This document shows, in pieces, positions 5,122-24,263 of a stretch of DNA of 49,990 nucleotides (positions within the stretch are counted from its first letter, which is position 1; the number at the start of each line of letters is the position of its first letter). Location of the stretch: positions 1 through 49,990 of the forward strand of contig JANLFN010000017.1 in the NCBI GenBank assembly GCA_024655885.1, given 5' to 3'. Under the pieces are notes generated by a model, which was given only the letters and a program-made list of their open reading frames with translations, was not told the DNA's origin and made no database searches. This stretch comes from Eubacteriales bacterium (GTDB lineage: Bacteria; Bacillota; Clostridia; Acetivibrionales; JANLFN01). Made by a program: the position numbers and the translations under genes.

Positions 5122-5157
5122 TCAGACGATGTATATATCCTTAATTGGCTTTGTCAT
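5122..5157 (-). pseudogene. AbiEii toxin gene stub (about 8 codons left)
   Basis: An ATG overlaps the stop of the AbiEi gene (ATATGA), the usual arrangement of an abiEi-abiEii operon. The first codons read M-T-K-P-I-K-D-I, like the start of AbiEii nucleotidyltransferase toxins from memory of the family. After that the frame meets unrelated sequence and stops at 5122. The rest of the toxin, normally around 300 residues, is absent. The overlap and spacing are seen directly; the identification of such a short stub is inference. Confidence 0.5.
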
Positions 5158-5759
5158 ATGAGAACCTCCAGATATTTTTTCATTATTGCACTTACGCGAA
5201 GTATTTCAGCATACTGCATGAGCTTCTGGATATTTCTGTCCTTTGTGCGAATATATTTGTCCAATGCTTCGCGGACAATATCCTGCCCGATTTTATTTCT
5301 ATAATAAATCAAATCGCATATTGTTTTTTCCTTATCATATACTTTAACCGGATGTCCATCTACACTCACAGTCATCTGTCCTGCAGCATACCGGCAAGGA
5401 GCAAAGTAATAAATCTGTATAGGCGGATATTCAGGCAGCACAGGCTTTCGTGCCTTAATAGGTATTGCCAGAGAATACTCCTTGGGAATATGCGTAGTCA
5501 GTTCATGCCAGGAGAGTGCCGACAGAAGGCAAAGCACACCTTGCGGAACCGACCTGGATGCTTCAAGCAGTTCACTCATTTCGTGAGCTTTTTCCGGAAT
5601 CCGATACAAGCCTCTCCGGATTCTTTCCAGCGTTCCTTCTTCAACCAGCAGACTGATATTATATGCAGACAGCCCCAATTGTTTGAGTTCAGCAACTGTC
5701 AAAGTGCCGCCTGTTTTATTAAAGCCCTCGATAATTTCATTTACTTTAAAACTTTTCAT
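5154..5759 (-). CDS. abiEi: AbiEi-type antitoxin (type IV TA), now without its toxin
   Basis: A 201-residue protein with the AbiEi layout: an N-terminal winged-helix region (about residues 1-60, ending G-L-Y-R-I-P) and a C-terminal domain with the A-L-S-W-H-E-L-T and K-E-K-T-I-C-D-L motifs. In the family it represses its own promoter and neutralises the AbiEii nucleotidyltransferase, giving abortive infection and element maintenance. I chose ATG 5759 over the GTG at 5768 because the Shine-Dalgarno AAAGGTGA overlaps the GTG and lies seven bases before the ATG. An inverted repeat 20 bases upstream is a likely operator. The toxin gene is reduced to a stub, so this is an orphan antitoxin that may survive as a repressor or as protection against related toxins. 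Confidence 0.82.
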   Translation of the reverse strand: MKSFKVNEIIEGFNKTGGTLTVAELKQLGLSAYNISLLVEEGTLERIRRGLYRIPEKAHEMSELLEASRSVPQGVLCLLSALSWHELTTHIPKEYSLAIPIKARKPVLPEYPPIQIYYFAPCRYAAGQMTVSVDGHPVKVYDKEKTICDLIYYRNKIGQDIVREALDKYIRTKDRNIQKLMQYAEILRVSAIMKKYLEVLI

Positions 5760-5780
5760 ATATATCACCTTTGAATTATG

Positions 5781-6036: not shown

Positions 6037-7464
6037 TTACTGCCGGAGGAAAGCCTGGAAAACCTTACGATATAGGGCTTGCTGGGAAAAAATACTTAAT
6101 TCATTCCTTAATACACCTCTTAATTTATGGCTTAATGTTGAAACGGGATGTATTAAGCTCTCTAAAATCAGCTTATGGAAAATTTGTAGCCTATCCGGTA
6201 AACGCCGATGGTATAAGCAGGAGAATCCTGGATCGTTCCGGCAGCGGATAACCTGTAAAACCTCCTGAAAAGCTCTGTGACTCGGGACAGCTTTTCTTCC
6301 TTTTTGCATTTGAGGTTTATAATCTCCTCCCAAAAATGCAATAGCTTTCTGTGTAAGCCGGAAAAGCCCGGTTTCATATTGTGGCTTTTGATTATCCAGC
6401 GTAATGGCCTCACCGTCCAGGGGGTCCAGATAACCCGCTGCAACAAGCTTGTTCAGCATTGCCTTTTTGATATTTGTCTCCCGTTCCCGGATTTCGCTGT
6501 TATATCTGGCAAGCCTTTTTTCTACATCCGAATAATCCAGGATGCCGTCTTTTGCAAATTCCAGCAGATGCCTGTAACCTTTCCCGGGAACAAATTCCTT
6601 CAATACCTTTTCTTTTTCAAGCTTATATCGCCGGTTCTTCCTGACCCTGTCCGCCTCCCGGATTTCCTCCAGCTTTTGCAGTCCCTTTTCAGTAAGCAGG
6701 TAAGTATTTTCATCAACTTTGGTGAAATATCCGACTCTTGTAAGTTTTTCAAGGGAAGACCGCTTCCAGCACATTTCTCGTTCAATAGCCTTGCCTGAAA
6801 GCTTTTTTCCCAGGTACTGACGGTAAGCCTCCAGGCTGAATTCATTATTCCGGCAAAATTCAAGAATAAATTTATGAACACTGGAGAAGTTGAAGTTGTT
6901 CTTATATTCCTCAAGCTTCTGTTTTAAATACTCCTGATAGAATTTATAAAAGTAGTTATTTACTTCATATCTATAATTGAGACGTATTCTTACTTTCAGG
7001 GTATGCTTGATAGAACTGTCGCTGTCTGTATAGTTTATCTTTTCTTCATAAAACCTGTTTCCCTCTGTGGTGTCATTCAATAGGCCCAGATATGCAAGAT
7101 AACCCAGCCGCATTTTTGTATAGTCAAGAAAGTTGTTGCGGTCTTCATCAGAGGCAAAAGCATCCCTTGCATATTCATCTATGGTTTTCTGCGTCAATAT
7201 CCCTTTATTCTGCTGGCTGGCATTGAATATATGCTCATCAAAGCTGTTCATCCTGAACTGACGAAGTTTTTCCGCTTTCCTCCGGCTGTGTCCCTTCTCA
7301 AATTCAATTCTCCGCTGAATCCTCCGGTATATGGAATTGCTGCTGCCAATCCCCGGAGCAGAGGCAAGACTGATAAGGTCAAAAATTTTTTGATCAAGAG
7401 TATACTCCTGCTTGTTCGGCATAACCTTGTAAAGGTACAGTCCCTTTTCCCCAAGTTCCGGCAT
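6037..7464 (-). CDS. Uncharacterised ICE-associated protein with winged-helix-like repeats, 3' end probably frameshifted
   Basis: I do not recognise a named family. The 475-residue frame begins after AGAGGTAAAATC-ATG. It is rich in charged residues and contains at least two stretches that look like winged helices, ending in L-T-R-V-G-Y-F-T-K and L-V-A-A-G-Y-L-D-P, in the style of replication-relaxation or plasmid DNA-binding proteins. The sequence is protein-like up to about residue 400 (Q-K-G-R-K-A-V-P-S-H-R). After that the tail loses this character, while another frame on the same strand reads L-S-A-A-G-T-I-Q-D-S and stops near 6168. A late frameshift is therefore likely. It overlaps no neighbour and follows the small membrane protein by four bases, so the two share a transcript. 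DNA processing during transfer or replication is a guess. Confidence 0.5.
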   Translation of the reverse strand: MPELGEKGLYLYKVMPNKQEYTLDQKIFDLISLASAPGIGSSNSIYRRIQRRIEFEKGHSRRKAEKLRQFRMNSFDEHIFNASQQNKGILTQKTIDEYARDAFASDEDRNNFLDYTKMRLGYLAYLGLLNDTTEGNRFYEEKINYTDSDSSIKHTLKVRIRLNYRYEVNNYFYKFYQEYLKQKLEEYKNNFNFSSVHKFILEFCRNNEFSLEAYRQYLGKKLSGKAIEREMCWKRSSLEKLTRVGYFTKVDENTYLLTEKGLQKLEEIREADRVRKNRRYKLEKEKVLKEFVPGKGYRHLLEFAKDGILDYSDVEKRLARYNSEIRERETNIKKAMLNKLVAAGYLDPLDGEAITLDNQKPQYETGLFRLTQKAIAFLGGDYKPQMQKGRKAVPSHRAFQEVLQVIRCRNDPGFSCLYHRRLPDRLQIFHKLILESLIHPVSTLSHKLRGVLRNELSIFSQQALYRKVFQAFLRQ

Positions 7465-7851: not shown

Positions 7852-9402
7852 CTATTTGATTTTATCAAGAAAATCTGCAACTAGCTTTATATTTGTTAAA
7901 ATTGCAATTGCAGCAATAATCATGCAAATATTAATAAATATCGATACGCCCCAGTAAATATAAAAATTCCTTTTACTTTTTCTAATAATCGTATCATCTG
8001 GTATATCTTCTTTAATGAGAATTTGCTTGAACGATTCAATAAGCTGGTTATAATCTTTAAGGATGATATTCAATCTAAGTTTGTTATAACTCAAATAATA
8101 AAGGCCACTTATAGTAAGAAATATAATATATATTACTGCTGAAATTTTCAAAATATTTATACTTGCTTTTGTAGCATAGCCAATCATTGTTGCAACCACT
8201 ACACCTACGGATGTAAGAAGATTTTTGTTTAACGTTTCCAATATAGAGTTAATCTCATTAGATATCTCCTTAGCTTTATTAGAAAAAATATCCCTAATTT
8301 TCCTACGTTCGTTTAGGTACTGTTCAACATTTTCTTTCAAATATATATTAAAATTAGCTAGTACAGATTTATATATATCATATGACTTTTTGAGCAGAAG
8401 CCCATAATGGTCTATATTGCACTCTTCACAAAGAAATATTGTAGACAGATTCCTTAATATACTTATTTTATCAGAGCTGCTGCCATCACTGTAAACCCAC
8501 TGATAAATCTTATAAAGATATTTTACTTGCTTAAATTCATAATCTAAATTACTTTTATATTTTATTACTATCTTTTTGTAACCATTTATAGTACTCAGAG
8601 TGTCTCCATGCTCTGATATAGAATAATCAGCAAAAAAAGGGATAACAAGGTCTGTTATCTTTTTTAGTAAAGCATTTTTTAAATCTTCTGAAAACAAATA
8701 CCTGTCCTGATCAAAATCGAAGAAAAGGTATTCTGGAAGAAGCCACTTAGTACCACCAATCCAATTGCAGTTTTCATTGCGAGACTCAATAATTTCTAAT
8801 AACCTCCGCCAATCAACCATCACAGATGTATTACTGACAATCCATTCGCGTATTTCATTTAATGATTTACCGCCAATAATAAATGTCAGACCATTTTCTA
8901 ACACAATGTTGTCATTTAATATTATGAACAGGTTTTTTAATTCAGGTTTAAGCAATGAGCATTCAATTTCATTAAAACTAAAACTCTTTATAACATCTAC
9001 CAATCTTTTAACAGTTGAATAAATAATAATATTAAAATTTCTAAACTCAGAATAGGAAGCTTTAATTTTTTCTACGATTTTAGACTTATCAATAGTAACT
9101 TCAATATCTACAATATCGTAAACAAAAACTAAATCATCAATATCCTCCTTAATGGCTTCTTTGTTATAGCCCTCCTTTTTTATAAAAATACTACTTACGC
9201 TATTTTGATGGGATATTACTATTTTAAACGCTGTATCTAAAAAATTAAAGATGTCAGAGTAATCATACCCCGCTACCTTCATGCACTCATCTTTATCTAT
9301 CTGCTTTCTAAATACAACGACATTTGTATCTTCAGAAGAGTTAAAATAGGAAAGGCCAATAAGTTTGAAAAAATTATTCAGTTTCTCATTTAATAATTTC
9401 AT
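7852..9402 (-). CDS. Uncharacterised membrane protein, partner of the NA37-like protein
   Basis: A 516-residue protein of no family I can name. The first about 390 residues are soluble-looking, rich in Ile, Lys and Asn, with helical, partly coiled-coil segments toward the end (I-S-N-E-I-N-S-I-L-E). They are followed by two hydrophobic helices at about 403-445 and a last one near 485-507, so the protein probably sits in the inner membrane with a large cytoplasmic sensor-like region. It starts 22 bases behind the NA37-like gene with GGGG before the ATG. The pair therefore forms an operon under the LexA-box promoter. The strong A+T bias sets both apart from the ICE backbone. A DNA-binding protein paired with a membrane effector suggests phage defence by membrane damage, in the way Kiwa or Abi systems are organised; this is inference. 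Confidence 0.6.
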   Translation of the reverse strand: MKLLNEKLNNFFKLIGLSYFNSSEDTNVVVFRKQIDKDECMKVAGYDYSDIFNFLDTAFKIVISHQNSVSSIFIKKEGYNKEAIKEDIDDLVFVYDIVDIEVTIDKSKIVEKIKASYSEFRNFNIIIYSTVKRLVDVIKSFSFNEIECSLLKPELKNLFIILNDNIVLENGLTFIIGGKSLNEIREWIVSNTSVMVDWRRLLEIIESRNENCNWIGGTKWLLPEYLFFDFDQDRYLFSEDLKNALLKKITDLVIPFFADYSISEHGDTLSTINGYKKIVIKYKSNLDYEFKQVKYLYKIYQWVYSDGSSSDKISILRNLSTIFLCEECNIDHYGLLLKKSYDIYKSVLANFNIYLKENVEQYLNERRKIRDIFSNKAKEISNEINSILETLNKNLLTSVGVVVATMIGYATKASINILKISAVIYIIFLTISGLYYLSYNKLRLNIILKDYNQLIESFKQILIKEDIPDDTIIRKSKRNFYIYWGVSIFINICMIIAAIAILTNIKLVADFLDKIK

Positions 9403-9424
9403 AATACTACCCCAAAGTTAACAA

Positions 9425-10471
9425 CTAAAAAATTTTTTCACTGTAGGTCACATTTTTAACTATTATGTCTACTTCCTTTTTATTGTCATAATGCTTTATT
9501 TCAAATTTACTAGCATCATTAGATGTTTCTATTTCAACACTTATCTCAATTCCGGTGTTAGTTTTAATTTTCTTCTTGCGCAACTTTTCCCTAACCCATT
9601 GCTTATCGATTTCAAAAGTATAATCACCTAGCTGCTCAGATATATATGATTTATACTTTTCTCTAAGTTCTTCTTGATCACCAAATGCAGTATCCGCAAA
9701 TGTCGTAACATTTATATTATCAGCTGTTTTCAATGTATTTATAAGGAGCGACCTCAAGTCTTCAGTCTTTTCCAAATCATCCTTAAAGTACTCGTTTATA
9801 AACACTTCAGTAAACTTTTTAAAATTCTTTGTATTATCTCTATTTGTTTTAGCAAGTCGACAATGTAAAAAACTGTTTACAAAGAAATTAGCTACTAGAC
9901 TGTCGGTTTTACTTCTTACTGCCTGTTTATCAAGAAGTATAATATCATATTCATTTTCTGGATCATAACGTTTAAAAAAAACACACTTATGTAACTTCTG
10001 TTTGTCATTTGGCATACCTGATCCACTAATTAAAATTTCAATTTTTGTTCTGCCTTCTACCTGCTTTACCTGTGTTTGGACAATTTCACTAAAATCCATT
10101 TTTAGCAGCGCTACATATTTTTGTTCTTCGACCTTATATACACATATTACAAAATTGGCTGGAGAAATATTCGGATGCTTCATAGCATCATATAAATATC
10201 TGGCAATCTGTTGTGATGAGGTAATAAACTTATCATCATTATCAATAATACACTGACAGTTATCTCTTACAACGTTTATTTGGTTTTCAAATTTTGCAAT
10301 TCTTGTATTCTCATCAGATATTGAGTTTTTTATATGCGATTTCAATAAATCTTTTACTTTTTCATTTAATTCCAACTCAAAATCAGCAAGTATAATTTTT
10401 TCTTCCTTATTATTCAGTATATGAACTACGGCTTTTAAAATTGATACTCCATTAACATTTCTCATATCCAT
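9425..10471 (-). CDS. NA37/NdpA (YejK-like) nucleoid-associated family protein
   Basis: A 348-residue protein matching the 37-kDa nucleoid-associated (NdpA/YejK) family in layout. The N-terminal V-V-H-I-L-N-N-K-E-E segment is followed by a long helical region, then the central strand pair around N-F-V-I-C-V-Y-K-V and Y-V-A-L-L-K-M-D-F that marks the family, and a C-terminal part with basic K-L-R-K-K-K-I. Family members bind DNA or the nucleoid; their biochemical role is poorly known. The start at 10471 has GGAGGG nine bases upstream. It is the first gene of a two-gene operon whose promoter contains a LexA-type box. NA37 genes in small mobile cassettes next to a membrane protein are suggestive of defence, and here the operon is cargo placed between two ICE genes. 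Confidence 0.7.
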   Translation of the reverse strand: MDMRNVNGVSILKAVVHILNNKEEKIILADFELELNEKVKDLLKSHIKNSISDENTRIAKFENQINVVRDNCQCIIDNDDKFITSSQQIARYLYDAMKHPNISPANFVICVYKVEEQKYVALLKMDFSEIVQTQVKQVEGRTKIEILISGSGMPNDKQKLHKCVFFKRYDPENEYDIILLDKQAVRSKTDSLVANFFVNSFLHCRLAKTNRDNTKNFKKFTEVFINEYFKDDLEKTEDLRSLLINTLKTADNINVTTFADTAFGDQEELREKYKSYISEQLGDYTFEIDKQWVREKLRKKKIKTNTGIEISVEIETSNDASKFEIKHYDNKKEVDIIVKNVTYSEKIF

Positions 10472-13474: not shown

Positions 13475-14791
13475 TTATTTAATCAGATCTAATTTCTGCC
13501 TGATTTTTCGCATATGCTTTTTTGTTGCTCTATTAATTGCTTCACCTTTTCCAAATATCATTTCAGCCCTTTTAACATATGAGATAAAATTCCCCTTACC
13601 CTTATAAATACCTTTAATAGAGTATTTCTCATATATATTCTTACAACTTATCTTATTCCCTTTTTTTGTAACCCCATTACTTTTTATTATAGTTTTAAGT
13701 TTCCGATACATCCTATAATAGTACTTTGATATAGTTTTATCTCTAATCGTGACTACATTGCCATCAAACGTAAACCCTAAATAATTCAATAAGTTTTTAC
13801 CATTATTAACCCTGTCAAGCACGAGTTCATTACAACTAATTACAAAATTATCTTTAAATTCAAATATTTGAGTTTTATCTGGTTGTAAATCCAACCTAGG
13901 TATTGATTTGATAATACTATTTATATAGGTAAACTGATTTTTAAAAACTTCCTCACTGCGTTTTGGTAGCACAATAATAAAATCATCACTGTAACGCATA
14001 TACAAGCCGTTATTGTCGCAAACATAATCATTTATCCTTTTATCAAATTGTAACATATAGATATTCGACAAAACAGCACTAATAGCCGAACCTTGAGGTA
14101 TTCCGTAGTCTTCCTCATGTTTTTTTACATACTGCTTTTTATACAGCTTAAATTGATCTAAAGTTAATACTTTCTCTAATTGATTGAGCTTTTTAATTCC
14201 GTCTTCACTATGAGGCAACCCGTTTAAATCCAATAAACTTTCCAAATCCCATACGGAGTATTTAGTAATATTTTTATAAACAGCATAGTAATCAGCCGGA
14301 AGTTCTTTTGTCCCTAGCAAATCATTCAGCATATTTTTTAAATATTTATGATCTAAGCTATCAAAAAACTTTGTAAAATCGCCAATAATAATGTAGCAGC
14401 TTTCCTTTTTTCTTATAAAATCTATTGCTTGTTTAGCAAAGTGTATATTATTCTTTCTTAATTCATCTCTGTACGCAATAGCTGAATTGCTTATGCCATC
14501 ATTTTCAGCTCTTTTGTTATACAATTGATTAAGTTTATATCCATAAAATTGAAATATACATCTATCTATATGTGCAGAATAGCAAAGCTCACGTTCCTTT
14601 TTTATAATTCCTTTCTCCTTACTATACTTATTAAATGTTTGTATGTAGTGAATAAAGGGATAAAAACTATGGGTTTCTATATTCTTTGGATTATTAATGT
14701 AACCCCATACATCATCTAAAGAAACTCTGTTATCAAAATGTGCATAATTTCTCCTACTTTTGTTTTTCGCTTTCCATTCATAGAGTTTCAC
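13475..14791 (-). CDS. Stand-alone reverse transcriptase, candidate defence RT
   Basis: A 438-residue reverse transcriptase from a GTG at 14791, preferred because GGGGG lies seven bases upstream; frames from ATG 14821 or 14839 lack an RBS. RT motifs are in order: G-D-F-T-K-F-F-D-S-L at about 137-146 (first catalytic Asp), a long insertion of about 80 residues, G-I-P-Q-G-S-A-I-S at 230-238, Y-S-D-D at 267-270, and N-Y-L-G-F at 336-340. The basic C-terminal part (about 350-438) is thumb-like; no maturase X domain or HNH domain is visible, which argues against a group II intron. It lacks retron and DGR signatures, and no template/variable repeat pair is seen. High A+T content and its position on an ICE fit the UG/Abi-type defence RTs. 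It has its own promoter and a long leader. Confidence 0.75.
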   Translation of the reverse strand: MKLYEWKAKNKSRRNYAHFDNRVSLDDVWGYINNPKNIETHSFYPFIHYIQTFNKYSKEKGIIKKERELCYSAHIDRCIFQFYGYKLNQLYNKRAENDGISNSAIAYRDELRKNNIHFAKQAIDFIRKKESCYIIIGDFTKFFDSLDHKYLKNMLNDLLGTKELPADYYAVYKNITKYSVWDLESLLDLNGLPHSEDGIKKLNQLEKVLTLDQFKLYKKQYVKKHEEDYGIPQGSAISAVLSNIYMLQFDKRINDYVCDNNGLYMRYSDDFIIVLPKRSEEVFKNQFTYINSIIKSIPRLDLQPDKTQIFEFKDNFVISCNELVLDRVNNGKNLLNYLGFTFDGNVVTIRDKTISKYYYRMYRKLKTIIKSNGVTKKGNKISCKNIYEKYSIKGIYKGKGNFISYVKRAEMIFGKGEAINRATKKHMRKIRQKLDLIK

Positions 14792-14797
14792 ATTTTT

Positions 14798-14832
14798 CCC
14801 CCGTAATAGCGTAATACCCATCAACACGGGGG
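14798..14832. promoter_or_regulatory. Hairpin sequestering the RT gene's ribosome-binding site
   Basis: CCCCCGT (14798-14804) pairs with ACGGGGG (14826-14832). On the mRNA the G-run next to the GTG start is one arm of this stem, so translation of the RT may be limited by the structure at the end of the leader. Confidence 0.5.
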
Positions 14833-15101
14833 GCAGCATCCCTAAGCTGACAGGTATAACTCAACATGGTATTCATTTTTCGCCTGAGCGATTTGTGTCA
14901 AGAATTCCAGCTACCCAAATTCGCCCTAATACTAAACTATGTTATAATAGTTAAGGAGGCAAGTTCAATAGAGATGATTATAATGTGTCTTACAATGCTG
15001 ATACTCAATGAACTCTGTTCAACTCTGGAGGGACTATTTGAAACAATAATCTCCAAGCAGTTGACAACAATCTCCATCCCTCATGTCCAATTACATAAGG
15101 C
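14805..15101 (-). ncRNA. Long leader upstream of the reverse transcriptase, candidate RT-associated RNA
   Basis: A gene-free stretch of about 310 bases lies between a consensus promoter and the RT start. It contains small stems such as AACTAT/ATAGTT and G-A-A-T-T/A-A-T-T-C pairs, and ends in the RBS-sequestering hairpin. Retrons and several defence RTs encode a structured RNA in exactly this place. I cannot fold it reliably by eye, so the RNA function is inference. Confidence 0.35.
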
Positions 15102-15107
15102 ATAATC

Positions 15108-15136
15108 ATTATATCCTTTTCCAGTTTCAGGGTCAA
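15108..15136 (-). promoter_or_regulatory. Consensus sigma-A promoter for the RT leader
   Basis: Minus-strand TTGACC (15136-15131) and TATAAT (15113-15108) with a 17-base spacer. Transcription would start near 15101. Confidence 0.7.
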
Positions 15137-15350
15137 GGATTTTTTGGTACATTTTTGGTGCATTTGTTTTATTTAGGTAATAAAGACTTCACAAAGTACT
15201 CCTGACTCCTGGAATAGAAAATTGCAGTAAAAAAGGTTCTGTAATAAGAGTGTTAGAGGAGCGCAGAATAAAAAATTGCTGATTATTGAGCACAATCTTT
15301 TTTAGAAAACACTATTGTTGTACAACTGTTGTAAAATTGTTGTAGTAAAC
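15137..15350. other. Gene-free right end of the ICE remnant beside tRNA-Thr
   Basis: No gene is visible. The stretch holds near-direct repeats GGTACATTTTTGGTGCATTT (15148-15167) and a cluster of three ACAACA words on the minus strand (15312-15346). Such short repeats near a tRNA 3' end could be recombinase arm sites, but no integrase gene is present in the window to support this. Confidence 0.3.
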
Positions 15351-15380
15351 AAAAAACTTCCGAAGCCTAAACCTCGGAAG
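15351..15380 (-). terminator. Terminator of the sigH-tRNA transcript
   Basis: Stem CTTCCGA/TCGGAAG followed by T6 on the minus strand, 12 bases past the tRNA-Thr CCA end. Confidence 0.75.
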
Positions 15381-15392
15381 CCTTGATTTCAC

Positions 15393-15468
15393 TGGAGCCC
15401 TCAATCAGAATCGAACTGATGACCTCATCCTTACCATGGATGCGCTCTGCCTACTGAGCTATGAGGGC
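15393..15468 (-). tRNA. tRNA-Thr (anticodon GGU)
   Basis: A 76-base cloverleaf with acceptor stem GCCCTCA/TGAGGGC, D-arm, anticodon arm CATCC-ATGGTAA-GGATG (anticodon GGT in DNA), T-loop GTTCGATTC and an encoded CCA. It lies four bases behind tRNA-Gly. The ICE remnant begins past its 3' end, a common integration position. Confidence 0.95.
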
Positions 15469-23833: not shown

Positions 23834-23880
23834 AACGTCAACAAAAAACCTCCTTTGACAGGAGCTCTTCTGTTGACGTT
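23834..23880 (-). terminator. Nested hairpin terminator of the candidate small RNA
   Basis: An outer 10-bp stem AACGTCAACA/TGTTGACGTT encloses an inner CTCC/GGAG stem followed, on the minus strand, by T6. It is oriented to end a minus-strand transcript. Confidence 0.6.
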
Positions 23881-24058
23881 AAAACCCAAAATGGCGTTTC
23901 CCTATATTTTGACACCTAGCCCTACGCTAGGTGGGTGTCCTGCTGGACGCTTCAACCTTCCCCCGCCGTTGCACCCGTTCAAGCGACAAGTGTCGGAATT
24001 AGGTTGGGGCCTGATATCTACTGCCAAACACCGGACTCCCTTATGTCTGATGTAGGTT
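23881..24058 (-). ncRNA. Structured small RNA, 6S-like candidate
   Basis: No protein gene fits this stretch. On the minus strand GGTGT/ACACC and CAACCT/AGGTTG build a long interrupted stem with a central open region and an apical CGACA-CT-TGTCG hairpin. An ACCTAGC/GCTAGGT hairpin lies on the 3' strand. A TATTAT at 24068-24063 could be the -10 and a terminator follows, giving an RNA of about 190-215 bases. Size and the open central bubble fit 6S RNA. The SRP RNA signature and tmRNA features are absent. Confidence 0.4.
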
Positions 24059-24263
24059 CAAAATAATAGGTTTATCCGCTCATTTCAGGATTAATTGCAT
24101 CTTACAAAATTATTATAACATCAAAACAGCAGATTTAACAATAAAATATTATCCCTTTTAAATCATTTTTACCCAATATTCCAGTATCAGACGCTATTAT
24201 GCTTTCAAAATCAAACAATACAAGCATTTTAGCTTCTGCCGGCCCGTTTTGGCTCGATAGGTC

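Follow-up and report, generated by a model that had tools for sequence, protein, structure and literature searches.

This locus raises the question of what a reverse transcriptase (RT) gene standing alone behind its own promoter and a long leader might be making. It lies in a window of 49,990 nucleotides, the whole stretch analysed here, from contig JANLFN010000017.1 of a Eubacteriales bacterium. An earlier note on this DNA had described a stand-alone RT with a Y-S-D-D motif, a consensus promoter of its own and a leader of about 310 nt, and had proposed that it is a defence RT with an RNA of its own; these points have stood up, with defence itself a prediction from homology. The locus is, in our judgement, very probably an anti-phage system of the DRT2 type, from a branch that is mostly Bacillota, in which tandem copying of a 141-nt template would bring forth a hidden gene, Neo.

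The RT gene occupies 13475..14791 on the minus strand and encodes 438 aa from a GTG start that is preceded by GGGGGAAAAAT and agrees in position with the starts of relatives; the open reading frame itself opens further upstream, at the ATG at 14839 (13475-14839 from this first ATG). The frame and the catalytic residues are intact, with D138 present and Y-S-D-D at residues 267-270, and RVT_1 is the sole Pfam domain. By its sequence the protein is a DRT2 (UG2) defence RT. It scores 391.5 bits with the NCBIfam Drt2 model NF041746, narrowly passing the curated cut-off of 390, and 486.3 bits with the PADLOC Drt2 model, while among solved structures the highest-ranking sequence matches are DRT2 entries, 9c0i among them (E 4.2e-56). 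The relationship to KpnDRT2 of Klebsiella pneumoniae (PDB 9c0i) is nevertheless distant, at 194 bits. The segment between motif A and the P-Q-G motif, which the earlier note had singled out as an unusual insertion, is indeed long (Asp138 to Pro232), but Klebsiella DRT2 has one of nearly equal length (Asp140 to Pro232 in the 9c0i alignment).

Of particular relevance is the comparison with the RNA of KpnDRT2, which carries a template with permuted -10 and -35 boxes; rolling-circle copying joins the boxes and opens an endless neo frame, and this creation of a gene by reverse transcription has been shown for Klebsiella DRT2 and related homologues (PMC12039810 and PMC11100668). The window follows the same plan: a single RT with an RNA upstream, composed of a 5' handle, a central template and a 3' pseudoknot; a permuted -35/-10 pair that the junction would bring back to 17-bp spacing; and a predicted unit divisible by three that would give a stop-free hydrophobic repeat. 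The predicted cDNA repeat unit (neo) covers 14931..15071 on the plus strand, 141 nt or 47 codons as against 120 nt in KpnDRT2, and is free of stops in tandem. On the cDNA strand of the window TATAAT (14943..14948, plus) comes before TTGACA (15061..15066, plus), the permuted order; tandem 141-nt copies place TTGACA and TATAAT 17 bp apart (5 + 12) with zero mismatches in both boxes, as the -35 and -10 of a predicted junction promoter that has this spacing after tandem copying only. The 17-bp spacing is a criterion of the finder used. The predicted junction of the 141-nt unit reads TTGACAACAAT followed directly by ACTAAACTATG.

Four tandem copies of the unit contain no stop in frame 1, 12 stops in frame 0 and 36 in frame 2. 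The predicted repeat, LNYVIIVKEASSIEMIIMCLTMLILNELCSTLEGLFETIISKQLTTI, is hydrophobic at 26 of its 47 residues (A, V, I, L, M, F, W or C). Among 5000 dinucleotide shuffles of the unit, 213 had any stop-free circular frame. A possible ribosome site for Neo, at 14953..14976 on the plus strand, consists of AAGGAGG (14953-14959) and an ATG (14974-14976) at a spacing of 14 nt, the start being uncertain. Under the frame-blind settings described below this unit is the only candidate in the window leader; when the settings are relaxed, the window yields 19 candidate units, one of them of 105 nt by way of the second TATAAT, with no box mismatch. The chromosome itself holds neither the assembled promoter nor the endless frame, both of which would arise only if the RNA were copied round and round.

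The same features were sought in the leaders of relatives. With the single protein as query, no relative came up in genome_contigs or viral_contigs; a scan with alignment A1 supplied the best 80 of 137 relatives in genome_contigs and 6 in viral_contigs. Protein searches matched 24 plasmid and 3 phage records, and 5 of these 27 (H3, H20, H25, H26 and H27) were used; at the DNA level, a single short match came from the plasmid collection. Eleven loci were excluded beforehand (the window's own genome; L012, on which the gene of L011 continues as a second piece). The 99 loci yielded 94 usable leaders, L018, L064, L076, L088 and L091 being set aside because their 5' ends were short or broken, and the removal of 6 that were identical in the last 330 nt left 88 distinct leaders, including that of the window. 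The finder allowed at most one mismatch per box, demanded 17-bp spacing and a unit length of 90-200 nt with boundary homology of 3 nt or more, and took no account of the reading frame.

With the frame thus ignored, a candidate unit was found in 73 of the 88 leaders; its length is divisible by three in 70 of these and it is stop-free in 69, over 20 different lengths from 111 to 186 nt. The reverse strands of the same leaders gave 44 candidates in 88, with 19 multiples of three and 5 open; shuffled leaders (20 per leader) gave 597 in 1760, with 205 multiples of three and 42 open. Because the relatives share ancestry, these counts are not independent events. No candidate was found in 15 of the 88 leaders; the candidates of L084, L099 and L107 are not multiples of three, that of L095 further has no open frame, and some of the failing leaders retain the scaffold (by eye) or the 5' handle (by model). 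As a positive control, L103 scores 562 bits to the solved Klebsiella DRT2, and the Klebsiella-like loci L101-L103 return a 117-nt unit with TGT (ACA in RNA), 117 nt being the commonest published unit length and ACA the published motif (PMC12039810). A hidden gene can thus be read by simple rules in 69 of the 88 leaders, and 65 of these are other than L101-L103 and their relative L019, which stand apart from the window in the tree described below.

What the open frame is for can be asked of its substitutions, which over 11 independent pairs number 99, 83 and 116 by codon position (p = 0.064); the third-position excess is too weak to show selection on the Neo protein beyond openness of the frame. 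This weakness would suit an alternative in which the RT and RNA are as described here and the repetitive cDNA acts as DNA, as reported for DRT9, the open frame being incidental. So would the statement in PMC11100668 that Neo annotation is more challenging in divergent DRT2 clades, and so would three relatives, L066, L068 and L071, that keep the scaffold on an RNA which by eye looks too short for such a template. A repeat acting as DNA, however, has no need of lengths that are multiples of three in 70 of 73 cases over 20 lengths, nor of 69 open frames, nor of a 17-bp distance between -35 and -10, and we regard this alternative as improbable beside a Neo made by tandem copying.

The three relatives deserve description in their own right. 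In L066, L068 and L071 the 3' pseudoknot scaffold is retained, judged by eye, and the RNA is about 180-190 nt long by the same judgement; the finder saw no neo unit in them, nor did model R1 find the 5' handle, and the RNA looks too short to hold a template of at least 110 nt. Their protein start appears Cys-rich by eye. This sub-branch of DRT2-like RTs may make a different product. One MAG holds both L057 and L059, whose RTs the tree does not tell apart: the leader of L059 is complete and contains a 144-nt unit, and in L057 the scaffold is retained, with other sequence replacing the handle and the template.

The variation on KpnDRT2 lies in the short motifs that would guide the jump from one round of copying to the next, which form an ACA pair there and an AUU pair in the window. 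Predicted jump motif 1 is the AUU at the template 5' end (15069..15071, minus strand) and motif 2 the AUU just 3' of the template (14928..14930, minus), with the same letters at a distance of 141, a match of only 3 nt; in cDNA terms AAT bounds the unit at both places. In the window's branch both ends carry AUU or AUUG in the RNA, in place of ACA. When units were chosen by frame and not by homology (n = 79, including 20 tied leaders for which the first was taken), an identical 3-mer stood at both ends in 36 of the 79, and it was always AAT in cDNA, compared with 51 of 948 at shifted positions; the other 43 units have no common 3-mer at that offset. End-to-end identity peaks at offsets 3 to 5 (63-73%), the next value being 52% at offset 8. 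Pairing of AUU-2 with the RNA just 5' of AUU-1, the counterpart of Klebsiella SL2, was looked for by eye and not seen. The frame register relative to the -10 box is common to 51 of 69 units and differs between branches, the Klebsiella-like L101-L103 having another register than the window.

In a quick tree, a branch with full SH-aLRT support holds 80 of 86 rows, including the window, and is mostly Bacillota where the organism is named; the Klebsiella-like L101-L103, L019, L104 and L109 fall outside it. The tree leaves out L011 and L077, which were too short, and its AUU label was given by a loose rule, with L072, L078, L086, L094, L096 and L098 as doubtful rows. Because AUU stands at both ends in place of the ACA-1/ACA-2 pair, the locus is filed as a variant. 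No description of an AUU jump motif was found in the article texts and legends consulted, among them the preprint form of PMC11100668, and a literature search on the RT-6 RNA discussed below gave no paper. We think it likely that a large, mostly Bacillota branch of DRT2 forms its hidden genes through the rolling-circle scheme of Klebsiella but with a jump code of its own, AUU(G), in place of ACA, and we infer that the exchange of AUU for ACA is specific to the window's branch; sister lineages possibly use other pairs, GUAU for example. The paired change of the jump motif offers a natural test of the template-jumping model. If the reading is right, the guide motif can change provided that both ends change together, divergent DRT2 clades in which Neo is hard to annotate may be of the AUU kind, and the hidden gene is readable from sequence alone.

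The RNA that would serve as template follows a promoter on the minus strand (15108..15136), TTGACC (15136-15131) and TATAAT (15113-15108) separated by 17 bp; in its -10 box one position is invariant and two are conserved in at least 90% of 38 sequences (alignment A3). The leader runs from 14792 to 15102. Besides the RT, the sole listed minus-strand ORF of at least 50 aa in it is one of 52 aa at 15005-15163, and on the plus strand an open frame at 14866-15105 crosses it. The predicted non-coding RNA occupies 14805..15102 (minus strand), its 5' end placed by the promoter and an Rfam match and its 3' end by the last conserved helix. The match is to RF03027 (RT-6) at 15102-15030, with 51.0 bits against a gathering score of 46.7, which all 8 of 8 other AUU-branch loci tested also pass. 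RT-6 takes in just the 5' handle together with the opening bases of the template, one end of a DRT2 RNA. Another family, RF03016 (RT-12), marks the RT-proximal RNA in L101-L103 and their relative L019 (4 of 4) and does not match the window; neither family matched in 6 other loci tested. The two families may represent opposite ends of a single type of RNA, each recognised in a different branch.

The leaders were aligned in a 3' part (A2) and a 5' part (A3), each of 38 sequences including the window; the rows were picked for carrying the AUU motif, and its invariance in these alignments is thus by construction. The leader is a structured, covarying, pseudoknotted RNA belonging to the RT. The stem-loop SL1 of the 5' handle, 8 bp at 15079..15100 (minus, as are the helices that follow), is paired in 98.7% of cells and shows changes on both sides at 8 of 8 pairs over the 38 sequences; the pseudoknot helix (14831..14916, joining 14916-14910 to 14837-14831) is paired in 100% of cells, with both-side changes at 7 of 7 pairs, and the scaffold helix (14814..14857, joining 14857-14846 to 14825-14814) in 98.4%, with such changes at 10 of 12. 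Taken jointly, the scaffold and pseudoknot reach values that 0 of 500 shuffles attained by four measures and 2 of 500 by a fifth, and pairing falls to 31-47% when the helices are slid. At the 3' end of the template a hairpin with covarying arms (14935..14952) holds the complement of the -10 box in its loop; it has at least 5 bp in 36 of 38 sequences, against a mean of 19 with permuted partners, and 0 of 2000 permutations were as good in mean score. Here the window again differs from KpnDRT2, in which the -10 complement pairs with RNA upstream of the template (PMC12039810). In folding energy the leader is no better than its shuffles (z -1.25), and its structure would have been missed if judged by energy alone.

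One might instead take the leader for a cis-regulatory RNA, an attenuator or a switch at the ribosome binding site (RBS), with the RT working alone, and both the closeness of the RNA end to the RT start and a hairpin able to cover the RBS in the window sequence would fit that idea. A hairpin over the RBS had been reported in the earlier note, and a pairing of CCCCCGU with ACGGGGG is present and strong here; it is particular to the window's sequence, its cognate pairing in the 38 sequences being no better than permuted (354 of 2000 as good), and we have rejected it as a functional switch. The conserved helices, moreover, lie upstream and follow the plan of a DRT2 RNA, and regulation in cis leaves the template rules of the survey unexplained, so that we consider this account very unlikely. 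Least likely of all, to the point that we hardly credit it, is a group II intron RT, whether decayed or standing alone, or else a retron, to which the distant similarity to maturase and retron models might point but which is contradicted by scores far under the cut-offs (77.5 bits against 300 for the group II maturase; 58.3 against 235 for the retron model St85 and 20.4 against 600 for TIR) where the Drt2 model passes its own, by the intact frame and catalytic residues, by the DRT2 entries as best structure matches, and by Rfam, which at gathering scores finds no intron RNA in the window. The two outcomes that the earlier note had named as speaking against its reading, an RT that groups with group II maturases and a leader unconserved among homologues, have not come about.

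With the template-copying DRT2 preferred, the steps of the infection response can be drawn by analogy with Klebsiella DRT2 (PMC12039810 and PMC11100668), from which binding, copying, triggering, transcription, toxicity and defence would all carry over. The present analysis itself shows the family of the RT, the fold of the RNA, the length of the unit, the spacing of the promoter boxes, the open frame and the matching jump motifs. The RNA and the RT would be made from one promoter, as their positions suggest, and the RT would grip the RNA at two places, its 5' handle and its 3' pseudoknot. Upon phage infection the enzyme would copy the 141-nt template up to AUU-1, whereupon the new cDNA 3' end would re-anneal to AUU-2 and copying would restart, giving a tandem cDNA. 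Once this became double-stranded, every junction would set TTGACA 17 bp from TATAAT, and the junction transcript would encode an endless hydrophobic protein of 47-residue repeats, Neo, which would presumably stop the growth of the infected cell.

As to the extent and mobility of the system, a comparison with one relative is informative. In Desulfosporosinus hippei (L020) the RT is 75% identical and the DNA is 78% identical over 15120-13476, from promoter to stop, and the DNA similarity goes no further within the 7.3 kb compared; since it spans promoter to stop only, these three elements (promoter, RNA, RT) appear to form a single cassette. To the left of the RT are a protein with a TraG P-loop (VirB4-like at 153.8 bits, under the NCBIfam cut-off of 325), an M23 peptidase protein, AbiEi, a DUF3991-Toprim protein and a ParA-type ATPase; to the right are two tRNA genes, a sigma-70 family gene and a serine acetyltransferase. 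A mobile element ending near the tRNAs is likely. Carriage of the RT on an ICE, put forward in the earlier note, is only suggested by the conjugation-type genes on the same side; the element ends were sought and not found, nor was an integrase among nine left-side ORFs scanned. The stretch 15100-15400 occurs once in the genome.

Some further features of the window were noticed. The AbiEi-type protein (5154-5768), on the same side as the RT, scores 213 bits with PADLOC, and the adjoining 475-aa ORF (6037-7464) has no PADLOC match. At 7852-10471 a nucleoid-associated NA37 protein (140.6 bits) adjoins a 516-aa protein for which Pfam, PADLOC and NCBIfam give no match at E 0.01, and the two possibly form a two-gene cargo unit. 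A 6S RNA lies at 23879-24094 on the minus strand (65.1 bits). RTs of the kind described here are uncommon: counting the window's own genome in each case, the Drt2 model finds them in 3 of 58 genomes from the order at E 1e-40 and in 3 of 391 from the class at E 1e-60, and alignment A1 finds them in 4 of 398 from the phylum at E 1e-60.
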